DNA of 40,242 nucleotides from Bacteroidia bacterium. Its GTDB lineage: Bacteria > Bacteroidota > Bacteroidia > UKL13-3. The notes below the pieces were generated by a model. The model was not told the DNA's origin. It did no database searches and saw nothing but the letters and a program-made list of their open reading frames with translations. Every line of letters starts with the position of its first letter. Within the stretch, counting starts at the first letter, position 1. Made by a program: the position numbers and the translations under genes. This document shows positions 328 through 25,400 of the stretch, one piece after another. Where the stretch lies: assembly GCA_023151275.1 (NCBI GenBank), contig JAKLJI010000026.1, positions 1 through 40,242 of the forward strand, given 5' to 3'.

Positions 328-3300
328 TTATTTTACAATCATCAAACGGCTATTGCTGGTGCTGTTTCCACTTTGCAAACGGATGATGTAAATGCCTTGT
401 GATAGGCTTTCTGTGCTCAGGTCAATTTCATACGAACCTGCATTCACCTGATTTCTGTTTTCGCTCATCAACTCTTTACCGGTTGCATCCAAGATGCTAA
501 TGCTTAAGTTCTCGGTTGTGTTAAGCTCAAAAGAAACAGTTACGTTATTGGTAGCAGGATTTGGATAAACCTGTACAGCGTTCAACTGCTTGTTCATTTC
601 CCTGTTTCCAACCGTTGTAACATTAATTTCCTGCTCGGTGCTGTAGGTTAATCCTTCGGTGTTTTTAGCTGTTAGTTTAACGGTATAAACACCATTGGCT
701 TTGTAAGTATGAACAGGATTTGTTGCATCAGATGAATCACCATCGCCAAAGTTCCAGGTATAGCTAAGTGTTTGTCCTTTGCTAACTGTAGTATTGGTGA
801 AGCTTACCTCAAGCGTTCCAGCTTTGCGTGTCCAGGTAAATGATGGAACAGGATTCAAGGTTGTGTCGTTTACGGTAACATTTTTGGTAATCATGTTGTT
901 TCCGCAAGGACTGAAGGCAATCAAGGTTACTGCATACGTGCCATTTCCAGGGAAAGTAAATTCAGGATTTGGATTTGATGTAGTATCAGTTGCTGAGGTT
1001 CCAAAGTTCCATAGTACATGTTTGCTAAAGCTCGAGCTATTGGTAAAGCTAACTTTGGTATTGTTCATGCTTGTTGCAAAAGTGAAGTTGGCTTCTGCAG
1101 CAGGATTCACAATAGGTGATGAATTGTAATCGCTGTTTTGTGGGTCATAGTTCGACCAGCAATTGGTCCAGTTGCTATCTGCATGCGGGCCAACAGCTCC
1201 TTTAAATGGAACCTGAGCAAAGAAAGGATCGCTGATTTTTGTTCCTGTATAGTTTGCACCGCTAACTACTGATGCAGCAAGGGCTCTGAAATCGGGTTGG
1301 TTGTAGTTGAATGGATTCACCAATACTCCGGCAGATGAGAAAATCGAATCGTTGTCGGCCATGATTTTGCCACGGGCTTGTGAAGTAGGAGCAGAGCTGT
1401 TGTTAACTGCACGCAGGTTACCTGCAAGTACATTGTTTTTGAAGAACAAGGTATCGTTCATCAATTTGTTTCCTGAGCGTGCTCCATCAATAAATACTGC
1501 ATCGTTCCAACCCATGAATACCGAGTTAAAGATTGATGTTGATGAGTTTCTTCTCAAGCGAGCTCCATTTTGGAAAGAGTTGCTATATGAAAGCGGTGTT
1601 CCATTGGCCAATGGTCCCAAAATGGTCATGTTAGAGAAAGTAGGATCGGTGAAAGGTTTTGCTTCTGTTCCGCTTCCGTCGTTATCCGATTCAAATCCGT
1701 TGGTTGTTGGACCAGAACCAATATCGTACAAAGATGAGTCGCGTAGTGCAATACCAAATTGTACCTTACCTGAGAAGCCAAAGTCTACGTCAAAGTCATC
1801 GTCAACGTTGCGGTAAGAAATCAGGTTTTTGGCATCTACATTTCCGCCAAACCATTCAAATGCATCGTCGTCTGCAAACGATACCTGAATATGGTCAAGC
1901 TTTGTACCTTTACCTAAAGCACCCATGGTTAAACCATTGATCTCGTTGCCTGGTGTGATTACAGTGCCGGCAAATTCAATACGTACATAGCTAAATGTTC
2001 CTGAGCTGTGGTTGTTGTCTGTACCTCCATACAAGGCATCACCAGATGCATTGTCAAGATCACCTTCAATGGCTGCCTGAATTCCATCTTCATTTGCAGC
2101 AACTGCGGCTCCCGGACAAGTTGAACAATCGGTAGGACGGTTAATTACCGCTTTACCTAAAATGATTACTCCACCCCAATCGCCTTTTGCACGTTGTCCT
2201 GCAGGTTTAGCAGAGGTAAATACAATTGGAGAGTTCTTGCTTCCTTGGGCATCAATTCTACCGTTACGGGTAATGATTAGGGTTGCTTTATTGGCTCCAC
2301 CTTTGATAATGGTTCCAGGTTGAATGGTTAAGGTAGCGTTGTTTTTAACAAAGGTATATCCATTGATAATGTAGATACTGTCTTTGTAGAAGGTTGTATT
2401 GCTGGTAATGTCGCCGGTAAATGCTCTAACTGGTGAAGCAACGCCTGATACATTGATTGATTTCTTTACGGATGCGCTGCATGAACCGTTGAATGCAGTT
2501 AAGGTAACTGCATATACACCATTTGCTGCATACGTATTACTTGGGTTTTGTGAAGTTGATGTGTTGCCATCTCCAAAGTTCCAGCTGTATGATGATGCGT
2601 TGCTGCTGGCATTGGTAAAGTTAACTTGTCCGTTGCTTCCAAGGCTTGATGTGAAATCTACTGTTGGATTTGGAGTTACATTAATTACTACAGTATCTTT
2701 TAAAGAACATCCGGTGATGGAATCAGTTACTGTTACAACGTAAGTTGTGGTTGCTGTTGGACTAGCAACCGGACGTGCAGCATTGGCATTTGAAAGGCCT
2801 GTTGCAGGTGCCCAGCTAAATTTGTAAGGACCAGCAAGTGTTTGTCCAAGCGTTACGGTTTTACCAGCACAAATGCTCGAATCTTTACCTGCATTAAAGC
2901 TTACAGGCATCAGGTTGATAGGACTTGAATACGTTGTAGTGTTGGGGTTGAAATTACACCAGCAAGCTGTCCAGTTATCGGTTCCAACTGCACCGCGGAA
3001 AGTAGTTTGTGTAAAGAATGGGTCTGCAACACGAGCATCAGCAAAAGATGCACCTGTGCTGGCAGAATTGCTCAGTGCAGAGAAGTTAGGATTGGTATAG
3101 TTAAATGGATCTGCTAATACGCCTACTGATGATAGCAAGGAGTCGTTTTGGTTCATAATTTTGGTTCTGACAGAACCACCTGCCGGAGCAGAGCTATTGT
3201 TTACTGCACGTAGGTTACCCGCGAGTAAGTTGTTTTTGAAGGAAAGCGTATCGTTGATAAACTTGTTTCCACTGCGTGCACCATCAATAAATACACCATC

Positions 3301-4296
3301 ATTCCAACCCATAAAAATGGAGTTGTAAATGGAGTTAGAAGAGTTTCTACGAATACGTGCACCATTCTGGAAGGAGTTGGAATAAGACAATGCGGTTCCG
3401 TTGGCCAATGGACCAAGAATGGTCATGTTAGAGAAAGTAGGATTGGTATAGGGTTGTGATTCTGTACCCGATGCATCATTGTCAGATTCAAAACCATTGG
3501 TGGTTGGACCAGAACCAATATCATACAAAGATGAATCGCGCAGGGCAATACCAAATTGTACTTTACCGGTAAAACCAAAATCGGTATCAAAGTCATCATC
3601 TACGTTGCGGTATGAAACCAGGTGTTTGGCATCTACTGTTCCACCAAACCATTCAAAGGCATCGTCGTCGGCAAAAGAAACCTGAACATATTCAATTTTG
3701 GTTCCATTACCCACACCGCCAAATGTAATTCCGTTAATTTCATTGCCGGGAGTAATTACTGTTCCTGCAAATTCAACACGTACATATCGCAAGGTTCCAG
3801 AGCTGTGGCTGTTATCTGTTCCGCCATAAAGGCCATCACCGTTGGCATTGTCTAAGTCGCCTTCAATGGCATTCTGAATACCGGTTTCGTTAGCAGCAAC
3901 AGCTGCGCCCGCGCACGATGAGCAATCGGTTGGTCTGTTAATAATTGCTTTTCCAAGAATTACCAATCCTCCCCAATCTCCTTTGGTACGATTGCCTGCG
4001 CTTTGGTCAGAGGTCATAACAATTGGCATGCTTGCAGTACCATTGGCTTCAATGCGTCCGTTGCGTGTAACAATCAACGTAGCTTTGGTTCCTTTTTTAC
4101 CCTGAATCAACGTGCCGGGCTGAATGCTTAAGGTTGCATTGTTTTTAACAAACACATATCCATCCAGGATATAGGTGGTGTCGTTAAAAAGTGTGGTGTT
4201 CGAGGTAATGCTTCCACTTAGTGTTCTCACTTTTTGTGAGAATCCCTGGAGTGCAATCATTACAAATAAAAGAATGAGTAAAACAGGTTTTTTCAT
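328..4296 (-). CDS. Large secreted protein with duplicated beta-helix-like region, PKD domains and type IX sorting domain
   Basis: A 1322-residue exported protein. It has a signal peptide (about residues 1-20, ending GFSQ). A region of about 430 residues (22-455) rich in short beta-type repeats, with GDWGG, DDDAFEWFGG and NVDDDFD motifs, is repeated at about 622-1075. An Ig/PKD-like segment and a PKD domain with WNFGDG (about 465-620) lie between the copies. Two more PKD-type domains (about 1085-1240) and a C-terminal sorting domain starting YPNPATN (about 1253-1322) follow. The sorting domain predicts export by the type IX system encoded 9-18 kb away and probably attachment to the cell surface. 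The repeated region resembles right-handed beta-helix folds in many Bacteroidota surface proteins, but I know no biochemical role for it. The upstream gene is a TonB-dependent receptor with a similar 11-bp-phased regulatory site, so the two may work together at the outer membrane. Confidence 0.88.
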   Translation of the reverse strand: MKKPVLLILLFVMIALQGFSQKVRTLSGSITSNTTLFNDTTYILDGYVFVKNNATLSIQPGTLIQGKKGTKATLIVTRNGRIEANGTASMPIVMTSDQSAGNRTKGDWGGLVILGKAIINRPTDCSSCAGAAVAANETGIQNAIEGDLDNANGDGLYGGTDNSHSSGTLRYVRVEFAGTVITPGNEINGITFGGVGNGTKIEYVQVSFADDDAFEWFGGTVDAKHLVSYRNVDDDFDTDFGFTGKVQFGIALRDSSLYDIGSGPTTNGFESDNDASGTESQPYTNPTFSNMTILGPLANGTALSYSNSFQNGARIRRNSSNSIYNSIFMGWNDGVFIDGARSGNKFINDTLSFKNNLLAGNLRAVNNSSAPAGGSVRTKIMNQNDSLLSSVGVLADPFNYTNPNFSALSNSASTGASFADARVADPFFTQTTFRGAVGTDNWTACWCNFNPNTTTYSSPINLMPVSFNAGKDSSICAGKTVTLGQTLAGPYKFSWAPATGLSNANAARPVASPTATTTYVVTVTDSITGCSLKDTVVINVTPNPTVDFTSSLGSNGQVNFTNASSNASSYSWNFGDGNTSTSQNPSNTYAANGVYAVTLTAFNGSCSASVKKSINVSGVASPVRAFTGDITSNTTFYKDSIYIINGYTFVKNNATLTIQPGTIIKGGANKATLIITRNGRIDAQGSKNSPIVFTSAKPAGQRAKGDWGGVIILGKAVINRPTDCSTCPGAAVAANEDGIQAAIEGDLDNASGDALYGGTDNNHSSGTFSYVRIEFAGTVITPGNEINGLTMGALGKGTKLDHIQVSFADDDAFEWFGGNVDAKNLISYRNVDDDFDVDFGFSGKVQFGIALRDSSLYDIGSGPTTNGFESDNDGSGTEAKPFTDPTFSNMTILGPLANGTPLSYSNSFQNGARLRRNSSTSIFNSVFMGWNDAVFIDGARSGNKLMNDTLFFKNNVLAGNLRAVNNSSAPTSQARGKIMADNDSIFSSAGVLVNPFNYNQPDFRALAASVVSGANYTGTKISDPFFAQVPFKGAVGPHADSNWTNCWSNYDPQNSDYNSSPIVNPAAEANFTFATSMNNTKVSFTNSSSFSKHVLWNFGTSATDTTSNPNPEFTFPGNGTYAVTLIAFSPCGNNMITKNVTVNDTTLNPVPSFTWTRKAGTLEVSFTNTTVSKGQTLSYTWNFGDGDSSDATNPVHTYKANGVYTVKLTAKNTEGLTYSTEQEINVTTVGNREMNKQLNAVQVYPNPATNNVTVSFELNTTENLSISILDATGKELMSENRNQVNAGSYEIDLSTESLSQGIYIIRLQSGNSTSNSRLMIVK

Positions 4297-4341
4297 GATT
4301 GAAAATTTGATTCGAAATAACCTACTGCCTGTTTTGCCAAT

Positions 4342-4369
4342 CTTAACTTAATGTTATGATAAGGTTAAT
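4342..4369 (-). promoter_or_regulatory. Three 11-bp-phased TTAAC-like motifs upstream of the cargo gene
   Basis: On the plus strand, hexamers CTTAAC (4342), GTTATG (4353) and GTTAAT (4364) start exactly 11 bp apart. On the coding (minus) strand they read ATTAAC, CATAAC, GTTAAG. The proximal motif lies 22 bp from a weak -7-like box TTATTTCG (4320-4313), the same spacing as at the TonB-dependent receptor gene. An 11-bp direct-repeat period is typical of PhoB/OmpR-family response regulator sites. The regulator's identity is inferred. Confidence 0.5.
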
Positions 4370-4849: not shown

Positions 4850-7771
4850 TTAAAACTTGTAGCTAACACCTGCTGAAATGGTATAACCCATTTTGTAGCG
4901 GAAAATCACATTGTCCATATTCGTTTTTTCTGCTGTTGATGTAGCAGGATTCAATAGTGCAGCCTTGTTGAAGTTATCCAATTTGCCATTCTCGTTGTTG
5001 TCTTGGTAGAATACCAAATCTTGAGCAAGCAAATCTCCAATTCCCAGTTTTGCTTCAAACTTGTTGTAGAAACGTTTTGAAATTGACAAATCAATCACAG
5101 TTCTTGGATTCTCCCACATATCTGGAGCTAAACCATTTTTCTCTCTTACAAAAGCAATGCGACGTCCAATGCGGTTAATGAACAATGCAAAGGCTAGGTT
5201 GCTTTTTTCATTGTAGTATTGGAAGCTTCCGTTTAAAATATAGGGCGATTGTCCTTGTAATGGACGATTGCCTGCAATCGATACAGCCTGATTCAATTCA
5301 ACTTTAGAAAGGATATAAGCGTAGTTAAAGGTTACTGAGAATCTTTTTGCCCAATCAGTACTCATCCATTTGTCAACAAAGTCAAAGTTCTTACGCAATT
5401 CAATTTCAAAACCATAGTTGTTTGCTTTGGCATCACTTGAATAACCTTGTACCAAATCAGAGCCCGGGAATTCATATACCACTTCAATGGGGTTGGTAAA
5501 CTTTTTATAGAATGCAGATGCCGAAATCATTTGTCCTTCTCCAGGATAAAATTCATAACGTACATCGTAGTTGTCAATACGGGTTCTAACCAATGCCGGA
5601 TTTCCGGTTACCACGCTGTTTAGGTTAAAGTCATAAAACTGGAAAGGAGCAATTTCACGAAACTCAGGACGAGCAACTGAACGGCTTGCAGAGAAACGCA
5701 GGTTTGTTTTTTCGTTCAACTCATAGGTAAAGTTCAAAGACGGTAAAATGTCGTTGAATACAGTATCTACTTTCAAAGGCTTTGGAGGATTGCTGTTCAA
5801 TTCAAATGAGTTCAATTGTTGGCGGTAGCTTTCCAAGCGAACACCATAGCTCATGCGTATGCGTGCACCAATTTTTTGATCGGCCATCAAGTAAGCCGCT
5901 GCAAGTTTTGAACTTGCCGAGTACACGTCCTGTGCGCGGAAGTCTTCTTTGAAGAAGAAATTGTTAGTGTATCTGCTTGCAGCAAACAAGGTGTCGAGAG
6001 AAGCTTCCAAGATCGCTTGGCGGCCGGGTGTGTTTTGATTCAGGATTGGGGCAAAGGCGCGTGCCTCAAAATCCCTACTTCTGACTTGATAAAGTGCTCC
6101 GGTTTTGAAACTGGTTTTTACACCTTTGATTTTTATGCGGTCTGCAGGAATAGATAAGTTGATGGCGGCAGAGCGAATGGTTTCATCCAATTTTGAGAAG
6201 AAACGTCCCATCTGAGTAATGTCGGGATTGCTACTTGATATGCGGGCTGCGTAGTTGGTGTAAACACCATCGTTTGCTCCCGGATCAATTAAGTTAGCTG
6301 TAGTTGTGAATCTTCTAAAGTCTGGAATATTGCGTTGAATAATGTTGTTGTTCAATACCCAATTGGCTTTTATTTTCAGGCTATTGATAAAGTGGTCTCC
6401 AATTAATTGTTGGGTAAGCAAACGACTCTCAGAGTAGTTGTAAAAGGTTCCACGCATCAAAGGCAATGACTCGGTTAAGTAATCATCGTTTCCTGAACGT
6501 AGAATGGTATTGTCTTCTGAGTTAACGATGTAGGAATTTTTGAAAGAGATTTTATGCTTGTTACCCAATTTCAAACCCATATTTAACATAGCTCCTGCCA
6601 ATACTTCGCGTTTGGTGATGGAGTCCATGTATGAATTTTTGATTTGGTTGTCAATTTTACCCATGGGGTTATTGAAGCTGTTACGCTCCACATAACTGTT
6701 CCTGTAAGAGTTGCTATGTGAACCGGATACAATAAATCCAAACTCGTTGTTTTTACCCATTTTGTAAGAGTTTCCTCCCGATACCTGAAATGAGCTGTTT
6801 ACAGGAAGTGCAGCAATACGCTCGGTTGCCCAGGAACTATTGAACTGCTTGGCCGAGTTTACAAATTGCTCGTTGCTTTGGTTATTGAATTCTCCACGAG
6901 CAGGAATGCCTGAAGGAAGTGCTCTTTTTCCATCGTCAATGCCCAACCAATCGGTGTTTCCACCTTCGTAAGAGAAGCCGGCTTTACCGGTTGTCAAGCT
7001 ATGTGAGCTACCACTTAAAGATGCGCTTACAAAACGTTTTTCAGGAATATCTTTGGTATTGATGGTAATCAAACCACCTGCAAAATCACCCGGTAAATCA
7101 GGAGATGCACTTTTTGTGATTACCATATTGTCAATCATGCCCGAAGGGAAAATATCGAAGGAGAATGCTTTACGGTCGCTTTCGGTTGAAGGCAGTGGTG
7201 CACCATTGATATAGGCTACATTGTAGCGGTCGTTCAAACCGCGAATGATAGCGAATTTGTTATCCTGTATGGATGTTCCACTCACACGCTTCATCACATC
7301 AGAGGTTGTGGCATCGGGAGTACGCTTGATCATATCAGCAGATACCCCATCCGAAATGGAGATATTTCGTTTTTGCTGAATCAATAAGGCGGAAGCATTT
7401 TCTTTTTTAAGTTCACCGGTAATAACAACTTCATTCAAATCTCTTTTGCTTTCTGATAAAGAAGTGTTTACCTGCGTTACTTCGTTGGCTTTTACTTCAA
7501 CACCGGAGATGGTTTTCTTTTGGTAGGAGATGAATGAAATAATCAGGTTGTATTTACCTGGTTTTACATTGTTTATGCTGAACTTGCCTTCATAATCGGT
7601 AGCGGCTCCAAAGCTGGTGCCTTCAATTACCACAGTAGCCCCTAGGATTTCTTCTCCTGTTTTTTGGTCGATTATCTTACCGGCAATTTTTCCGGTTTGT
7701 GCCTGAGCAGCAAATGCCGTCAGGAGCATAATCATGAAAAACTTAATAACGTGTTTGTTGCTGAAATTCAT
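4850..7771 (-). CDS. TonB-dependent receptor with carboxypeptidase-regulatory-like N-terminal domain
   Basis: Outer-membrane receptor of 973 residues from the ATG at 7771. That start is preferred to one seven codons upstream because the signal peptide (hydrophobic FFMIMLL, ending AQAQ) then begins normally and the -7 box keeps a short leader. Order: signal peptide, CarboxypepD_reg-like beta-sandwich (GKIAGKIIDQKTGEEI and following, to about residue 105), plug domain (about 120-250, with RGLNDRYN and GDFAGGLI), then a 22-strand-type barrel ending in an aromatic terminal strand (VSYKF). Such receptors import scarce ligands using TonB-ExbBD energy. The ligand cannot be read from sequence, but the 11-bp-phased motifs upstream point to a nutrient-starvation response, phosphate being the leading guess. 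No SusD-like partner is adjacent. The next gene downstream is a type IX cargo protein. Confidence 0.9.
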   Translation of the reverse strand: MNFSNKHVIKFFMIMLLTAFAAQAQTGKIAGKIIDQKTGEEILGATVVIEGTSFGAATDYEGKFSINNVKPGKYNLIISFISYQKKTISGVEVKANEVTQVNTSLSESKRDLNEVVITGELKKENASALLIQQKRNISISDGVSADMIKRTPDATTSDVMKRVSGTSIQDNKFAIIRGLNDRYNVAYINGAPLPSTESDRKAFSFDIFPSGMIDNMVITKSASPDLPGDFAGGLITINTKDIPEKRFVSASLSGSSHSLTTGKAGFSYEGGNTDWLGIDDGKRALPSGIPARGEFNNQSNEQFVNSAKQFNSSWATERIAALPVNSSFQVSGGNSYKMGKNNEFGFIVSGSHSNSYRNSYVERNSFNNPMGKIDNQIKNSYMDSITKREVLAGAMLNMGLKLGNKHKISFKNSYIVNSEDNTILRSGNDDYLTESLPLMRGTFYNYSESRLLTQQLIGDHFINSLKIKANWVLNNNIIQRNIPDFRRFTTTANLIDPGANDGVYTNYAARISSSNPDITQMGRFFSKLDETIRSAAINLSIPADRIKIKGVKTSFKTGALYQVRSRDFEARAFAPILNQNTPGRQAILEASLDTLFAASRYTNNFFFKEDFRAQDVYSASSKLAAAYLMADQKIGARIRMSYGVRLESYRQQLNSFELNSNPPKPLKVDTVFNDILPSLNFTYELNEKTNLRFSASRSVARPEFREIAPFQFYDFNLNSVVTGNPALVRTRIDNYDVRYEFYPGEGQMISASAFYKKFTNPIEVVYEFPGSDLVQGYSSDAKANNYGFEIELRKNFDFVDKWMSTDWAKRFSVTFNYAYILSKVELNQAVSIAGNRPLQGQSPYILNGSFQYYNEKSNLAFALFINRIGRRIAFVREKNGLAPDMWENPRTVIDLSISKRFYNKFEAKLGIGDLLAQDLVFYQDNNENGKLDNFNKAALLNPATSTAEKTNMDNVIFRYKMGYTISAGVSYKF

Positions 7772-7789: not shown

Positions 7790-7797
7790 CAAAAGTA
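7790..7797 (-). promoter_or_regulatory. Bacteroidota-type -7 box of the receptor gene
   Basis: TACTTTTG on the minus strand matches the TAnnTTTG -7 consensus and lies 18 bp before the ATG at 7771. Nineteen bp further upstream, where TTTG is expected at -33, the sequence is ACCT. The promoter therefore lacks a -33 box, and the phased motif array begins at that point. This fits an activator-dependent promoter. Confidence 0.6.
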
Positions 7798-7818
7798 GAG
7801 CGGCTATTCGGGCCGGAG

Positions 7819-7879
7819 GTTAATGCTAGGTTAATCTTAAGTAAAGTGAATGTTAGCCCTGCGTTAAGCGAATGTTAAG
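7819..7879 (-). promoter_or_regulatory. Six exactly 11-bp-phased TTAAC-like motifs (Pho-box-like array) upstream of the receptor gene
   Basis: Plus-strand hexamers start at 7819 GTTAAT, 7830 GTTAAT, 7841 GTAAAG, 7852 GTTAGC, 7863 GTTAAG and 7874 GTTAAG. On the coding strand these read CTTAAC, CTTAAC, GCTAAC, CTTTAC, ATTAAC, ATTAAC. The exact 11-bp period is that of PhoB/OmpR-family operators. The motif is close to the known Bacillus PhoP (TTAACA) and cyanobacterial SphR (CTTAACCT) boxes. The array ends 22 bp upstream of the -7 box, in activator position. Confidence 0.7.
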
Positions 7880-7921
7880 CAGAAAGGCTTTCTAATGGAT
7901 TCCGGCTGCTTACCAAACGAC

Positions 7922-7953
7922 AAAAGGCCGCTGCATGCGAGCAGCGGCCTTTT
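7922..7953 (-). terminator. Terminator of kbl (symmetric)
   Basis: Arms AAAAGGCCGCTGC (7922-7934) and GCAGCGGCCTTTT (7941-7953) are perfectly complementary with a 6-nt loop. It is A-rich on one side and T-rich on the other, so it could work both ways. It lies 45 bp past the kbl stop codon. Confidence 0.88.
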
Positions 7954-7997
7954 CTCAAATTGTTTTTGTATTCTATGAATTTGGGTTCAGTTAACAA

Positions 7998-9188
7998 TTA
8001 GTTAATCACACCCAATTGTTTTCCAACTTTTATAAAGGCTTCAATAGCACGGTCAAGATGTTCACGCTCATGTGCTGCACTTACCTGCACACGAATACGT
8101 GCTTGTCCTTTTGGAACTACCGGATAATAGAAACCAACCACAAAGATTCCTTCTTCCAACAATGCTGCTGCAAAATCCTGAGATAACTTGGCATCATACA
8201 ACATCACAGGTACAATCGGATGTTCTCCCGGTTTAATGTCGAAACCGGCTTCGGTCATCTTACTTCTGAAATACTGTGTATTGTCCCACAGCTTATCACG
8301 CAATGCAGTGGTTTCGGTAAGCATATCCAGAACCGCAATGCTGGCTCCTACAATAGAAGGAGCAAGTGTATTTGAGAAAAGGTAAGGTCTTGAACGCTGA
8401 CGAAGCATATCAATAATTTCTTTTCTTCCCGAAGTGAATCCACCCATGGCTCCACCCAAGGCTTTACCTAATGTGCCGGTGATGATATCAATTTTACCCA
8501 TCACATTTCTGAATTCATGGGTTCCACGTCCGGTTTTTCCCATGAATCCACTCGAGTGGCACTCATCTATCATGATAAGCGCATTGTACTTTTCGGCTAA
8601 GGCTACAATATGGTCCAATTGTGCAATGGTTCCATCCATCGAGAATACGCTATCCGTTACAATGATGCGGTTTCTGCAATGTTGCGTTACTTTAAGCTTT
8701 TCTTCTAAATCCGCCATGTTGTTGTGCTCGTACCTATGGCGTTCTGCTTTGCAAAGGCGCACTCCATCAATAATAGAAGCATGGTTCAAGGCATCGCTAA
8801 TTATGGCATCTTCTTCATTAAAAAGAGGTTCAAAAACTCCACCATTGGCATCAAAGGCAGCTGCATACAAAATAGTGTCTTCTGTACCCAGGAATTCAGC
8901 AATTTTCTTTTCAAGGGTTTTGTGAATGTCCTGAGTTCCACAAATAAAGCGTACAGAACTCATGCCATAGCCATGGCTGTCAATGCTTTGTTTAGCAGCT
9001 TCCAAAACACGTGGATGGCTCGACAACCCCAGGTAATTGTTGGCACAGAAAATAAGTACATCCTTGCCATCGCTAAGTTTTACTTCAGCACCTTGCGGAG
9101 AAGCAATAATGCGTTCTTGTTTATAAAGACCTGCTGATTCAATTTCGGCTAATTCTTTTTTGAGTTGATCCTGTAATCCTCCGTACAT
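7998..9188 (-). CDS. kbl: Glycine C-acetyltransferase (2-amino-3-ketobutyrate CoA ligase)
   Basis: PLP enzyme of the alpha-oxoamine synthase family. It cleaves 2-amino-3-oxobutanoate with CoA to glycine and acetyl-CoA, the second step of threonine breakdown in the cytosol. The 396-residue length matches the family. The PLP lysine is K242 in GTLGKALGG, the cofactor aspartate is in MIDECHSSG (D208), and the glycine-rich NYLGLSSHP is near residue 51. The ATG at 9188 is preferred: the frame is open 14 codons further, but that extension runs into the terminator of the upstream gene and lacks similarity to the family. The partner dehydrogenase Tdh is encoded at 27378-28328 rather than next door. 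The two steps usually go together because the intermediate is unstable. Confidence 0.95.
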   Translation of the reverse strand: MYGGLQDQLKKELAEIESAGLYKQERIIASPQGAEVKLSDGKDVLIFCANNYLGLSSHPRVLEAAKQSIDSHGYGMSSVRFICGTQDIHKTLEKKIAEFLGTEDTILYAAAFDANGGVFEPLFNEEDAIISDALNHASIIDGVRLCKAERHRYEHNNMADLEEKLKVTQHCRNRIIVTDSVFSMDGTIAQLDHIVALAEKYNALIMIDECHSSGFMGKTGRGTHEFRNVMGKIDIITGTLGKALGGAMGGFTSGRKEIIDMLRQRSRPYLFSNTLAPSIVGASIAVLDMLTETTALRDKLWDNTQYFRSKMTEAGFDIKPGEHPIVPVMLYDAKLSQDFAAALLEEGIFVVGFYYPVVPKGQARIRVQVSAAHEREHLDRAIEAFIKVGKQLGVIN

Positions 9189-9210
9189 GGTTTTGGTTAT
9201 TGGTGGAGCA

Positions 9211-9247
9211 AAAATAAAAAACCCCGTCAAATCGCAAAGTGACGGGG
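9211..9247 (-). terminator. Terminator of the FG-GAP repeat gene
   Basis: Arms CCCCGTCA (9222-9229) and TGACGGGG (9240-9247) with a 10-nt loop. On the minus strand they are followed by a long T-rich run. It lies between the FG-GAP gene and the kbl start codon. Confidence 0.88.
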
Positions 9248-22489: not shown

Positions 22490-25400
22490 ATGAAGCTCAG
22501 GGAACATTATGAAAAACAGTTCAGGGAGATTTTAAATAGCCTGAATGCCAGTCAAAAAAAGGCTGTTGATACCATTGAAGGACCGGTTTTGGTAATTGCT
22601 GGGCCCGGTACTGGAAAGACCCAGATTCTTGCGGCTCGTATCGCGAATATTCTGGTTCAAACCGATTGTCTTCCTGAGAATATTTTGTGCCTTACCTATA
22701 CGGATGCAGGTACCATTGCCATGCGCAAAAGGTTAGTTTCATTCATGGGCCCAGATGCATACAGAATAGGCATTCATACCTTCCATTCGTTTTGCAATAT
22801 GGTTATTCAGGAGAACTTGGATGTTTTTGGATTCAGAAACCTGGAGCCGATTGATGAATTGGAGCAAATAACTGTTCTGCATGGAATTATTGATGATTTA
22901 CCCAAGAATCATCCCCTCAAGCGCTACACCGGTGAAGAGTACTTTGAGGCAGGACGCATGAAAGCTCTATTTGAAACCATGAAGCGGGAAGATTGGACTG
23001 CTGAGTATTTGATTGAAAAAGTGGAGGCCTACGAGAAAGATTTGCCCAACCGCGATGAGTATGAGTACAAACGCGCCGGAACGCGTAAGGACGGCACCAA
23101 GTATAAGAAGGGAGATTTGAATGAGGATAAGCTGAATGCGGAACTCGGGAAGATGGAATTACTTAAAGCCGCAGCCTTGTTGCTCAAAGAATATGATTCG
23201 CGATTGGCGGAGTTGAAACGCTATGATTTTTCAGATATGATTCTCTGGGTTATTCATGCATTCAAAACCAATCCCGGATTGCTTGCTACTTATCAGGAAA
23301 AGTACTTGTACATGTTAGTGGATGAGTTTCAAGATACCAGTGGTTCACAAAACGACCTATTGCAATTGCTGATTTCCTATTGGGATGAACCCAATATTTT
23401 TGCAGTGGGAGATGATGACCAGAGTATTTACAGGTTCCAGGGTGCTAGTGTGGAGAATGTACAGGCCTTTGAAAAGCAATTCAAGGGCAAGATGGAAATG
23501 ATAAGTCTGGATGAAAATTACCGGAGCACACAATTGATTCTCGATGCATCGGCCTCTCTTATTAGCCGAAATGAGCAGCGGGTTTTACCCGATAAGCAAT
23601 TTCTTGCTAAAGGTCCCAATGCAGCTTTGCAAAACCCACGGCCAACTATTTATGCCTGCATCAATCCAGTGCATGAAGCCGCTTTTGTGGGTGGAAAAAT
23701 TCTCGAACTTCAACAAGCCGGAACTCCTTTGAGTGAAATTGCGGTTTTGTACCGCAACCACAGTCAGGCTGATATGCTTATTCAATTTCTAAAGCATAAA
23801 GGGGTTGGCATAAATACACGGAAACGTGAAAATGTATTGCTTCAACCCGTAATTCGGAAAATTATTGGGTTGATGCGCTACCTGAGTGCAGAAACAAAGA
23901 AGCCGCATAGTGGCGAGCATTTCCTGTTTGAAATTTTGCATTACGATGAATTCCGAATTCCTCTTTCAGAGTTGGCAGAGCTTGCCGTGAAAGTAGCCAA
24001 AGAGAATTTTGAGGAGCGAAGAACCTCTTGGAGAGATGAGATTGCAAAGCTTGCCCAACGTAGAGCTGAAAGTCTTTTTGAACCTGTTAAAGATGTGAAA
24101 GCCTGGAAGCATTTTAGTAAATTAATTCAGGAGTTGATTGAAGCTGTTCATAATGTTACTGTTCAGGAATTGATTCAGGATATTATTAACCGCTGCGGAT
24201 TTTTAACTGAAGCCTTGGGCAAATCAGACCAAAGCTGGCAAATGGAATTAATCAATACTTTTTTTGGTTTTGTAAAAGCTTCATGTGCACGCAAGCCTTC
24301 ACATACTCTGCATTCCTTAACAGCAATGCTTGATTTGATGATTGAGCAAGAAATTTCGTTGCCTGCTGAACGGGTCTATTACAGTGAAAACGGTGTGAAT
24401 TTAATTACAGCGCATTCTTCTAAAGGATTGGAGTTTGATGTAGTTTTTATCCTTGGTGCCAACAGTAGCAGATGGGATTCGCAACGCAATTCAGGTAAAT
24501 ATAAAATGCCTGATAACTTGGTAACTTCTACTGAAAACGATTTTGAGGAAGCACGACGTTTGTTTTATGTAGCCATAACACGGGCTCGTAAGCAATTATT
24601 GGTTTGCTGGCAACAACAGGATTTAAAAGGCAAGGAACTTGAAGCTAGCTTATTTGTTGAAGAACTGAAAGAAAGTGGAAAAGTAAAAGAGGAGCTTATT
24701 CGGCTAGACGAAGCAGCATTAGGTGACTTTTTGGAAGAAGTGTACCGCGAGGAAAAGGAGGCATTGCCTGCCAACCTTCTTGATACTCCATATATTGAAA
24801 GTTTGCTTGAAAAGTATACACTTAGTGTTACCCACCTCAACGCTTATTTGCATTGTCCTTTATCGTTCTATTTTAATAACTTCATTAAGGTTCCTGCTGC
24901 CAAAAGCGGACCATTAACTTTTGGTTCTGCTGTGCATTATGCACTTGAGATGTTGTTCAAAAAAATGAATGAAAATCCGGAAAGGCAGTTCCATGATTCT
25001 ACTCAATTGCTGCGCGATTTTGCCTGGTTTATGCGCAAGCATCAAGACAGTTTTATGCCTGAAGCTTTTAAACGCAAAATGGAATATGGCGAAAAAATTC
25101 TTTCTGATTTTTATACCAAGTACATCAGTTTCTGGAACAAAGTTACCAGCATTGAGCGCAGTTATCGCAATGTTGTAGTTGGCGGTGTTCCCATGAATGG
25201 GAAACTGGATAAGCTTGAATTTGATGGTAAAAAGGTTAATGTAGTGGATTACAAAACGGGGAACTACAAAAAGGCATTAAAGAAATTTGGTCGCCCCGAT
25301 GAAGCCAAAGTAGAAGAAGCCATTGCCAAAGGAAAGGAACCGGCATTTGAAGATTTGTATGGTGGAGATTATTGGCGACAGGCTGTTTTCTACAAATTGC

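Follow-up and report, generated by a model that had tools for sequence, protein, structure and literature searches.

The window, by which we mean the whole 40,242-nucleotide stretch of DNA analyzed here, carries a TonB-dependent receptor gene with a six-unit repeat array in front of it, and the order along the receptor strand is kbl, receptor, surface partner (Table 1). The receptor belongs to the TonB-dependent class, as both its plug and its β-barrel domain exceed the Pfam cut-offs; assignment to the SusC/RagA receptors (TIGR04056) was rejected, at 62.8 bits against a cut-off of 368.25. A scan of named genomes with the host receptor returned no relative. The broad receptor alignment is too variable to serve as a search query, and a PDB search with the FII-like alignment gave no match at E 0.01. 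We rejected the array as a control element of kbl, because kbl, on the same strand, terminates upstream of it; the hairpin between the two could be the kbl terminator. Host contig C26 also holds two regulator genes, at 7992–8219 and 25016–25243, that lie 17 kb apart and have identical domain scores and open-frame lengths, the result of either a recent duplication or an assembly effect.

Table 1. Features of the receptor locus, with positions counted from the first letter of the window
Feature	Position	Strand	Remarks
Surface partner, 1322 aa, PKD domains and T9SS sorting tail	328..4296	-	related to FII-like proteins adjoining the receptor homologues of relatives
Weak -7-like box TTATTTCG, 2 mismatches	4313..4320	-	starts 26 bp after the last unit does; phase as at the receptor
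Second array, three units TTAACCTTATC ATAACATTAAG TTAAGATTGGC	4336..4368	-	precedes the partner gene; matrix score 26.1
TonB-dependent receptor, 973 aa from ATG at 7771	4850..7771	-	Pfam TonB_dep_Rec_b-barrel, Plug and CarbopepD_reg_2 above cut-off
-7-like box TACTTTTG	7790..7797	-	starts 26 bp after the last unit does
TTAAC-type array, six 11-bp units head to tail	7813..7878	-	proposed Pho operator directed at the receptor gene; evidence from positions, shuffles, conservation and matrix
Hairpin, 16-nt arms, 94% complementary	7919..7956	.	possible kbl terminator
kbl (glycine C-acetyltransferase), upstream gene	7998..9230	-	often adjoins the receptor in relatives

The array and core promoter of the receptor gene

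Read in the direction of the receptor gene, from 7878 to 7813 on the minus strand, the units are TTAACATTCGC TTAACGCAGGG CTAACATTCAC TTTACTTAAGA TTAACCTAGCA TTAACCTCCGG, two of the six departing from the TTAAC core (TTTAC and CTAAC). They form direct repeats of 11 bp in tandem and in a single orientation, as in a Pho operator. The hexamers that the earlier note had reported, starting at 7819 (GTTAAT), 7830 (GTTAAT), 7841 (GTAAAG), 7852 (GTTAGC), 7863 (GTTAAG), and 7874 (GTTAAG), are placed exactly, and the 11-bp steps run without a slip. A motif-free test, which counts column matches over six consecutive 5-mers at periods 7–15 across the 40-kb window, supports this regularity: the score at period 11 is 28 of 30, the best at any other period is 25, and when the whole window was dinucleotide-shuffled 400 times, no shuffle reached 28 at any of these periods (maximum 27).

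The last unit is followed by 15 nt and then by the box TACTTTTG. Counted from the nearest hexamer (7819), the box is 21 bases away, in agreement with the 22 bp given previously. Boxes were called with what we take to be the Bacteroidota -7/-33 promoter consensus. No TTG or TTTG starts 15–29 bases upstream of TACTTTTG, so the earlier claim that the -33 box is missing holds. The second array, in front of the partner gene, is also matched by a pattern allowing two mismatches; at this stringency control hits are equally frequent.

Conservation across relatives

The receptor was searched for in 40 genomes, host included, and 30 promoters were read, those of the host and 29 relatives (L003–L032). 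A matrix was trained on 15 of the relatives' promoters, comprising 92 units with the consensus TTAACATTnnn; the host promoter, which is outside the training set, scores 48.5. The earlier note had named, as evidence against its reading, absence of the array from orthologous promoters and from all phosphate genes of the genome. Of the 30 receptor promoters, 26 instead keep the array (score ≥15), 17 of them with at least six units; among the promoters used neither for training nor as host, 10 of 14 reach this score. The same-genus genomes G001–G003 retain the six-unit form. Four promoters score below 15, those of G021, G012, G031, and G024 (14.6); in G021 only 4 bases separate the receptor match from the contig end, so that the promoter lies beyond the contig.

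The distance to the core promoter is also conserved. In 22 of the 26 receptor arrays the best -7-like box stands at phase 4 modulo 11, in every case at 15 or 26 bp. Partner promoters from a second set of loci, described below, keep the same phase: in 29 of their 31 arrays a -7-like box with no more than one mismatch is present, and in 28 of these it stands at phase 4 modulo 11 (15, 26, or 37 bp); the corresponding tally for phoB arrays is 4 of 6. The array thus lies in the upstream contact region of the promoter, at a set distance from the core.

The degenerate unit of the array is the third of six in G022, G011, G023, G004, G017, and G001–G003 (8 of 8; TTGATA, TTGACA/TTGACT, or TAAAT), and the fourth in the host.

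Arrays before partner and phosphate genes

The matrix was run, with a threshold of 15, on ∼0.9 Mb of stretches picked for the receptor, regulators, or phosphate genes. In both promoter tallies (these stretches and the collection loci below), genes with less than 60 bp upstream and genes at stretch ends were excluded. The 26 receptor promoters, PiT2, PstA/B/C, PhoU, PhoR, kbl, and other regulators were placed in neither group of the 0.9-Mb tally; receptors apart, the highest score among these excluded labels is 14.8. Scores of at least 15 occur before 20 of 23 partner genes and 9 of 22 phosphate genes, against 5 of 283 other genes, with Fisher p values of 8e-24 and 1.5e-8, respectively, which flatter the association because gene labels were set after the hit list had been seen. 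By kind, the phosphate genes that pass are phoB (4/6), pstS (1/2), porin O/P (3/4), and Na/Pi transporter (1/8), with none of two PhoU-like genes; at three Na/Pi promoters of this tally a scoreable array is missing. The motif is thus shared with phosphate genes, although Na/Pi transporters mostly lack it. As a null, reversed sequence gives 21 hits at or above 14 (top 28.4) against 83 on the forward sequence. A few three-unit arrays, in both orientations, were seen before PhoU-like or PiT genes in a look at PiT promoters in 30 loci, and these were excluded from the counts.

One of the five other genes encodes an acyltransferase that adjoins the receptor of G009 and has a three-unit array; glycosyltransferase and metallophosphoesterase genes lie in the same cluster (L145:5420-10645). 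These are possibly genes of phosphorus-sparing lipid remodeling.

A second set consists of 80 loci of FII-like partners, the best 80 of 541; 47 are metagenome-assembled genomes by title, and one (Salibacter halophilus) is G027, already seen. With matrix and threshold unchanged, arrays precede 6 of 10 phoB genes and 31 of 80 partner genes, compared with 19 of 515 other genes. None of four Na/Pi transporters and only 3 of 70 receptor promoters in these loci have one, the latter probably because the partner gene stands first there. In G027 the partner comes first with the receptor close behind, and the array may head a partner-receptor operon where the partner leads. An 8-column score is passed at period 11 by 36 of the 80 partner promoters; at any other period from 8 to 14, no more than one of the 80 passes.

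In several relatives the genes surrounding receptor homologues include phosphate genes. The homologue is near the partner, porin O/P, pstSCAB, and phoU in G028; near ppk, ppx, a Na/Pi transporter, and phoBR in G034; near a Na/Pi transporter and phoBR in G027; near a phoB-type gene in G033 and G026; and near pstB and phoU in G009. The homologues of G033, G034, G027, and G026 are distant, at 28–33% identity. The gap separating phoBR from pstSCAB-phoU in G033 contains an array, and at this site PstS, PstC, PstA, PstB, and PhoU exceed their NCBIfam cut-offs. The porin O/P-pst clusters of G026 and G015 are likewise preceded by an array, and in several genomes an array stands before phoB.

We also searched the 40 genomes with a strict pattern, four TTAAC units in which up to two mismatches were allowed. 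It gives 20 rows, which fall at 11 sites, and its reversed control gives 12. The sites comprise six receptor promoters, the G033 pst-phoBR gap, the promoter of an RprY-like system in the host, and three others. Looser patterns in the whole host genome give fewer hits than the reversed control in one case (7 against 12), and 6 against 5 in another; host hits with two or three mismatches were never used on their own, and pattern sites at C13:32.6 kb and C44:119.2 kb were inspected and set aside. Neither PhoU nor a Na/Pi cotransporter was found in the host genome, so the check before pst and phoU had to be made in relatives and, within the host, at the porin O/P-PiT locus. The host has two PiT genes. 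One of them follows a PhoU_div gene and is transcribed divergently from a porin O/P gene; the intervening gap holds a three-unit array directed at the porin. The motif is thus present at phosphate genes of relatives and at this host locus, and the phosphate reading withstands the refuting condition set by the earlier note. In the host genome at large, looser patterns are no commoner than the control, and the promoter of the host's own phoB-type gene scores only 10.9.

Candidate regulators and known Pho systems

The host encodes a candidate regulator (G000:C11:667340-668014) beside a histidine kinase gene, with response-regulator and winged-helix domains above the Pfam cut-offs. Its best two NCBIfam models are both PhoB, TIGR02154 (225.5 of 296.2 bits) and NF053854 (217.2 of 270 bits), and since both scores fall below cut-off we call it PhoB-type rather than PhoB. 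A PhoB-type regulator with at least 51% identity is present in 38 of the 40 genomes, host included, and missing from G021 and G039.

Another OmpR-family regulator could occupy the array instead, above all the RprY-like one (G000:C11:514916-515605) of a kinase-regulator pair (G000:C11:513594-515605, or L039:6595-8609). Apart from the receptor array, the strongest one in the host is that of this system, a perfect four-unit TAAC array with 11-bp spacing that lies between the pair and a divergent gene for a small, Cys/Lys-rich, secreted-looking protein, and its units have the TTAAC core in common with those of the receptor. The letters after the core differ: the RprY-like array is of type TTAACAAG, the receptor arrays follow TTAACATT, and the host receptor array scores 48.5 with the receptor-promoter matrix against -7.7 with an RprY-like matrix built from 12 units only. 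TTAAC by itself therefore cannot name the regulator and the following letters do, with the same reservation as to those 12 units. Among nine relatives' loci scanned, the TTAACAAG type recurs at RprY-like systems, with four units each in G020 and G034 and with two each in G024 and G038. G001–G003, which keep the six-unit receptor array, have a best RprY-like match of 36–38%, compared with 79–81% for the PhoB-type regulator. Both observations led us to reject the RprY-like system as the probable main regulator, and we regard control by another family member as unlikely.

It is slightly less likely still that the PhoB-type regulator binds the array in answer to a non-phosphate signal in this host. 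The missing PhoU and Na/Pi cotransporter would fit such a signal, as would the description of Riemerella PhoP, whose motif contains TTTAACA, as a regulator of hundreds of genes (PMC9603813). Yet the array recurs at the host porin O/P-PiT locus, and PhoU absence is usual in the group, since PhoU is present in 11 of 40 genomes and most array-bearing relatives are without it. A chance or mutational repeat lacking function is very improbable; TTAAC is A+T-rich and loose-threshold three-unit arrays occur at control level, but the shuffles produce no equal of the receptor array, and conservation and phase extend across genera.

The reading that we favor, at a probability of roughly 0.8 from these sequence comparisons, is that the array is a six-unit Bacteroidota Pho operator, on which a PhoB-type regulator would bind head to tail and drive the receptor and its surface partner at low phosphate. 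The earlier proposal of a receptor activated by phosphate starvation thus gains support from the retained receptor arrays, the frequency of the motif before phosphate genes, and its presence at phoB promoters of the collection loci. Against it we count the sub-cut-off scores of the regulator and the low score of its own promoter, the Na/Pi transporters (1/8 and 0/4), the collection receptors (3/70), and the pattern counts on reversed sequence given above.

We envisage that upon phosphate starvation the PhoB-type regulator would occupy the TTAACATTnnn units, perhaps cooperatively, with one protomer per 11 bp. The gene-proximal unit would sit at the -33 position, in constant helical phase with the TAnnTTTG box (15 or 26 bp start to start), such that the bound regulator could substitute for the missing -33 contact and recruit RNA polymerase. 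The receptor would be switched on in this way, and the partner likewise through the second array; together they probably take up and import a phosphorus compound. More tentatively, and in our judgment with slightly less than even odds, Bacteroidota may have a Pho grammar of their own, in which TTAACATTnnn units at 11 bp, placed 15 + 11n bp before TAnnTTTG, replace the -33 box and unit number is tuned for each gene. The six receptor units would then load a short PhoB filament, making receptor and partner top-ranked targets even where Pst-PhoU is lacking.

Such a rule of unit, 11-bp step, and set phase to the -7 box is testable and could guide the search for genes under phosphate control in the Bacteroidota, which matter in gut, soil, and sea. 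It would link the receptor and its surface partner, for which there is otherwise no explanation, to phosphorus acquisition, and would show how a promoter with a -7 box and no -33 box could be activated.

E. coli-type Pho boxes consist of 11-nt units with seven well and four less conserved nucleotides (PMC4415409). The PhoB boxes of Escherichia coli and relatives resemble the array in being 11-nt direct repeats that run head to tail ahead of the promoter core; they differ in that the 92-unit consensus here has TTAACATTnnn in place of the CTGTCAT core, the receptor has six units, and the TAnnTTTG -7 box comes without a -33 box. The cyanobacterial SphR box is built of CTTAACCT units, 8 bp with a 3-bp linker, at least three in tandem (PMC1906773), and shares this tandem arrangement, but differs in phylum, in promoter type, and in the up to six or seven units found here.

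Within the Bacteroidota, the relevant parts of the literature covered, which includes few subscription journals, yielded no Pho box consensus beyond the TTTAACA core of Riemerella PhoP. The sole Pho box passage found in a paper on B. fragilis PhoB gives no sequence (PMC3547664), and Pho boxes predicted in plcP clusters of marine bacteria, Flavobacteria among them, come with no consensus in the relevant text (PMC4796936). In Riemerella anatipestifer, TTTAACA represents the most conserved letters of the PhoP DAP-seq motif, and EMSA was performed on a TonB-dependent receptor promoter and on PhoP's own promoter (PMC9603813); the consulted text of that paper describes neither an 11-bp array rule nor a six-unit array.

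For the gene pair, Flavobacterium johnsoniae offers the receptor Fjoh_0545 and lipoprotein Fjoh_0546, in a phoBR cluster and strongly induced by phosphate depletion, in a paper whose consulted text does not use the words Pho box (PMC8115612). The same paper likens FI/FII lipoproteins to a lipoprotein that Caulobacter makes at low phosphate (PMC8115612). Homologues of Caulobacter elpS and cc0171 are noted to co-occur; ElpS is induced by phosphate starvation, and cc0171 was reported to be constitutive (PMC2996285). The window partner is a large T9SS-tailed protein, unlike the lipoproteins Fjoh_0546 and ElpS, but by their descriptions both Fjoh_0545/Fjoh_0546 and Cc0171/ElpS are, like the pair in the window, a receptor with an adjacent surface protein, in those two cases a lipoprotein.
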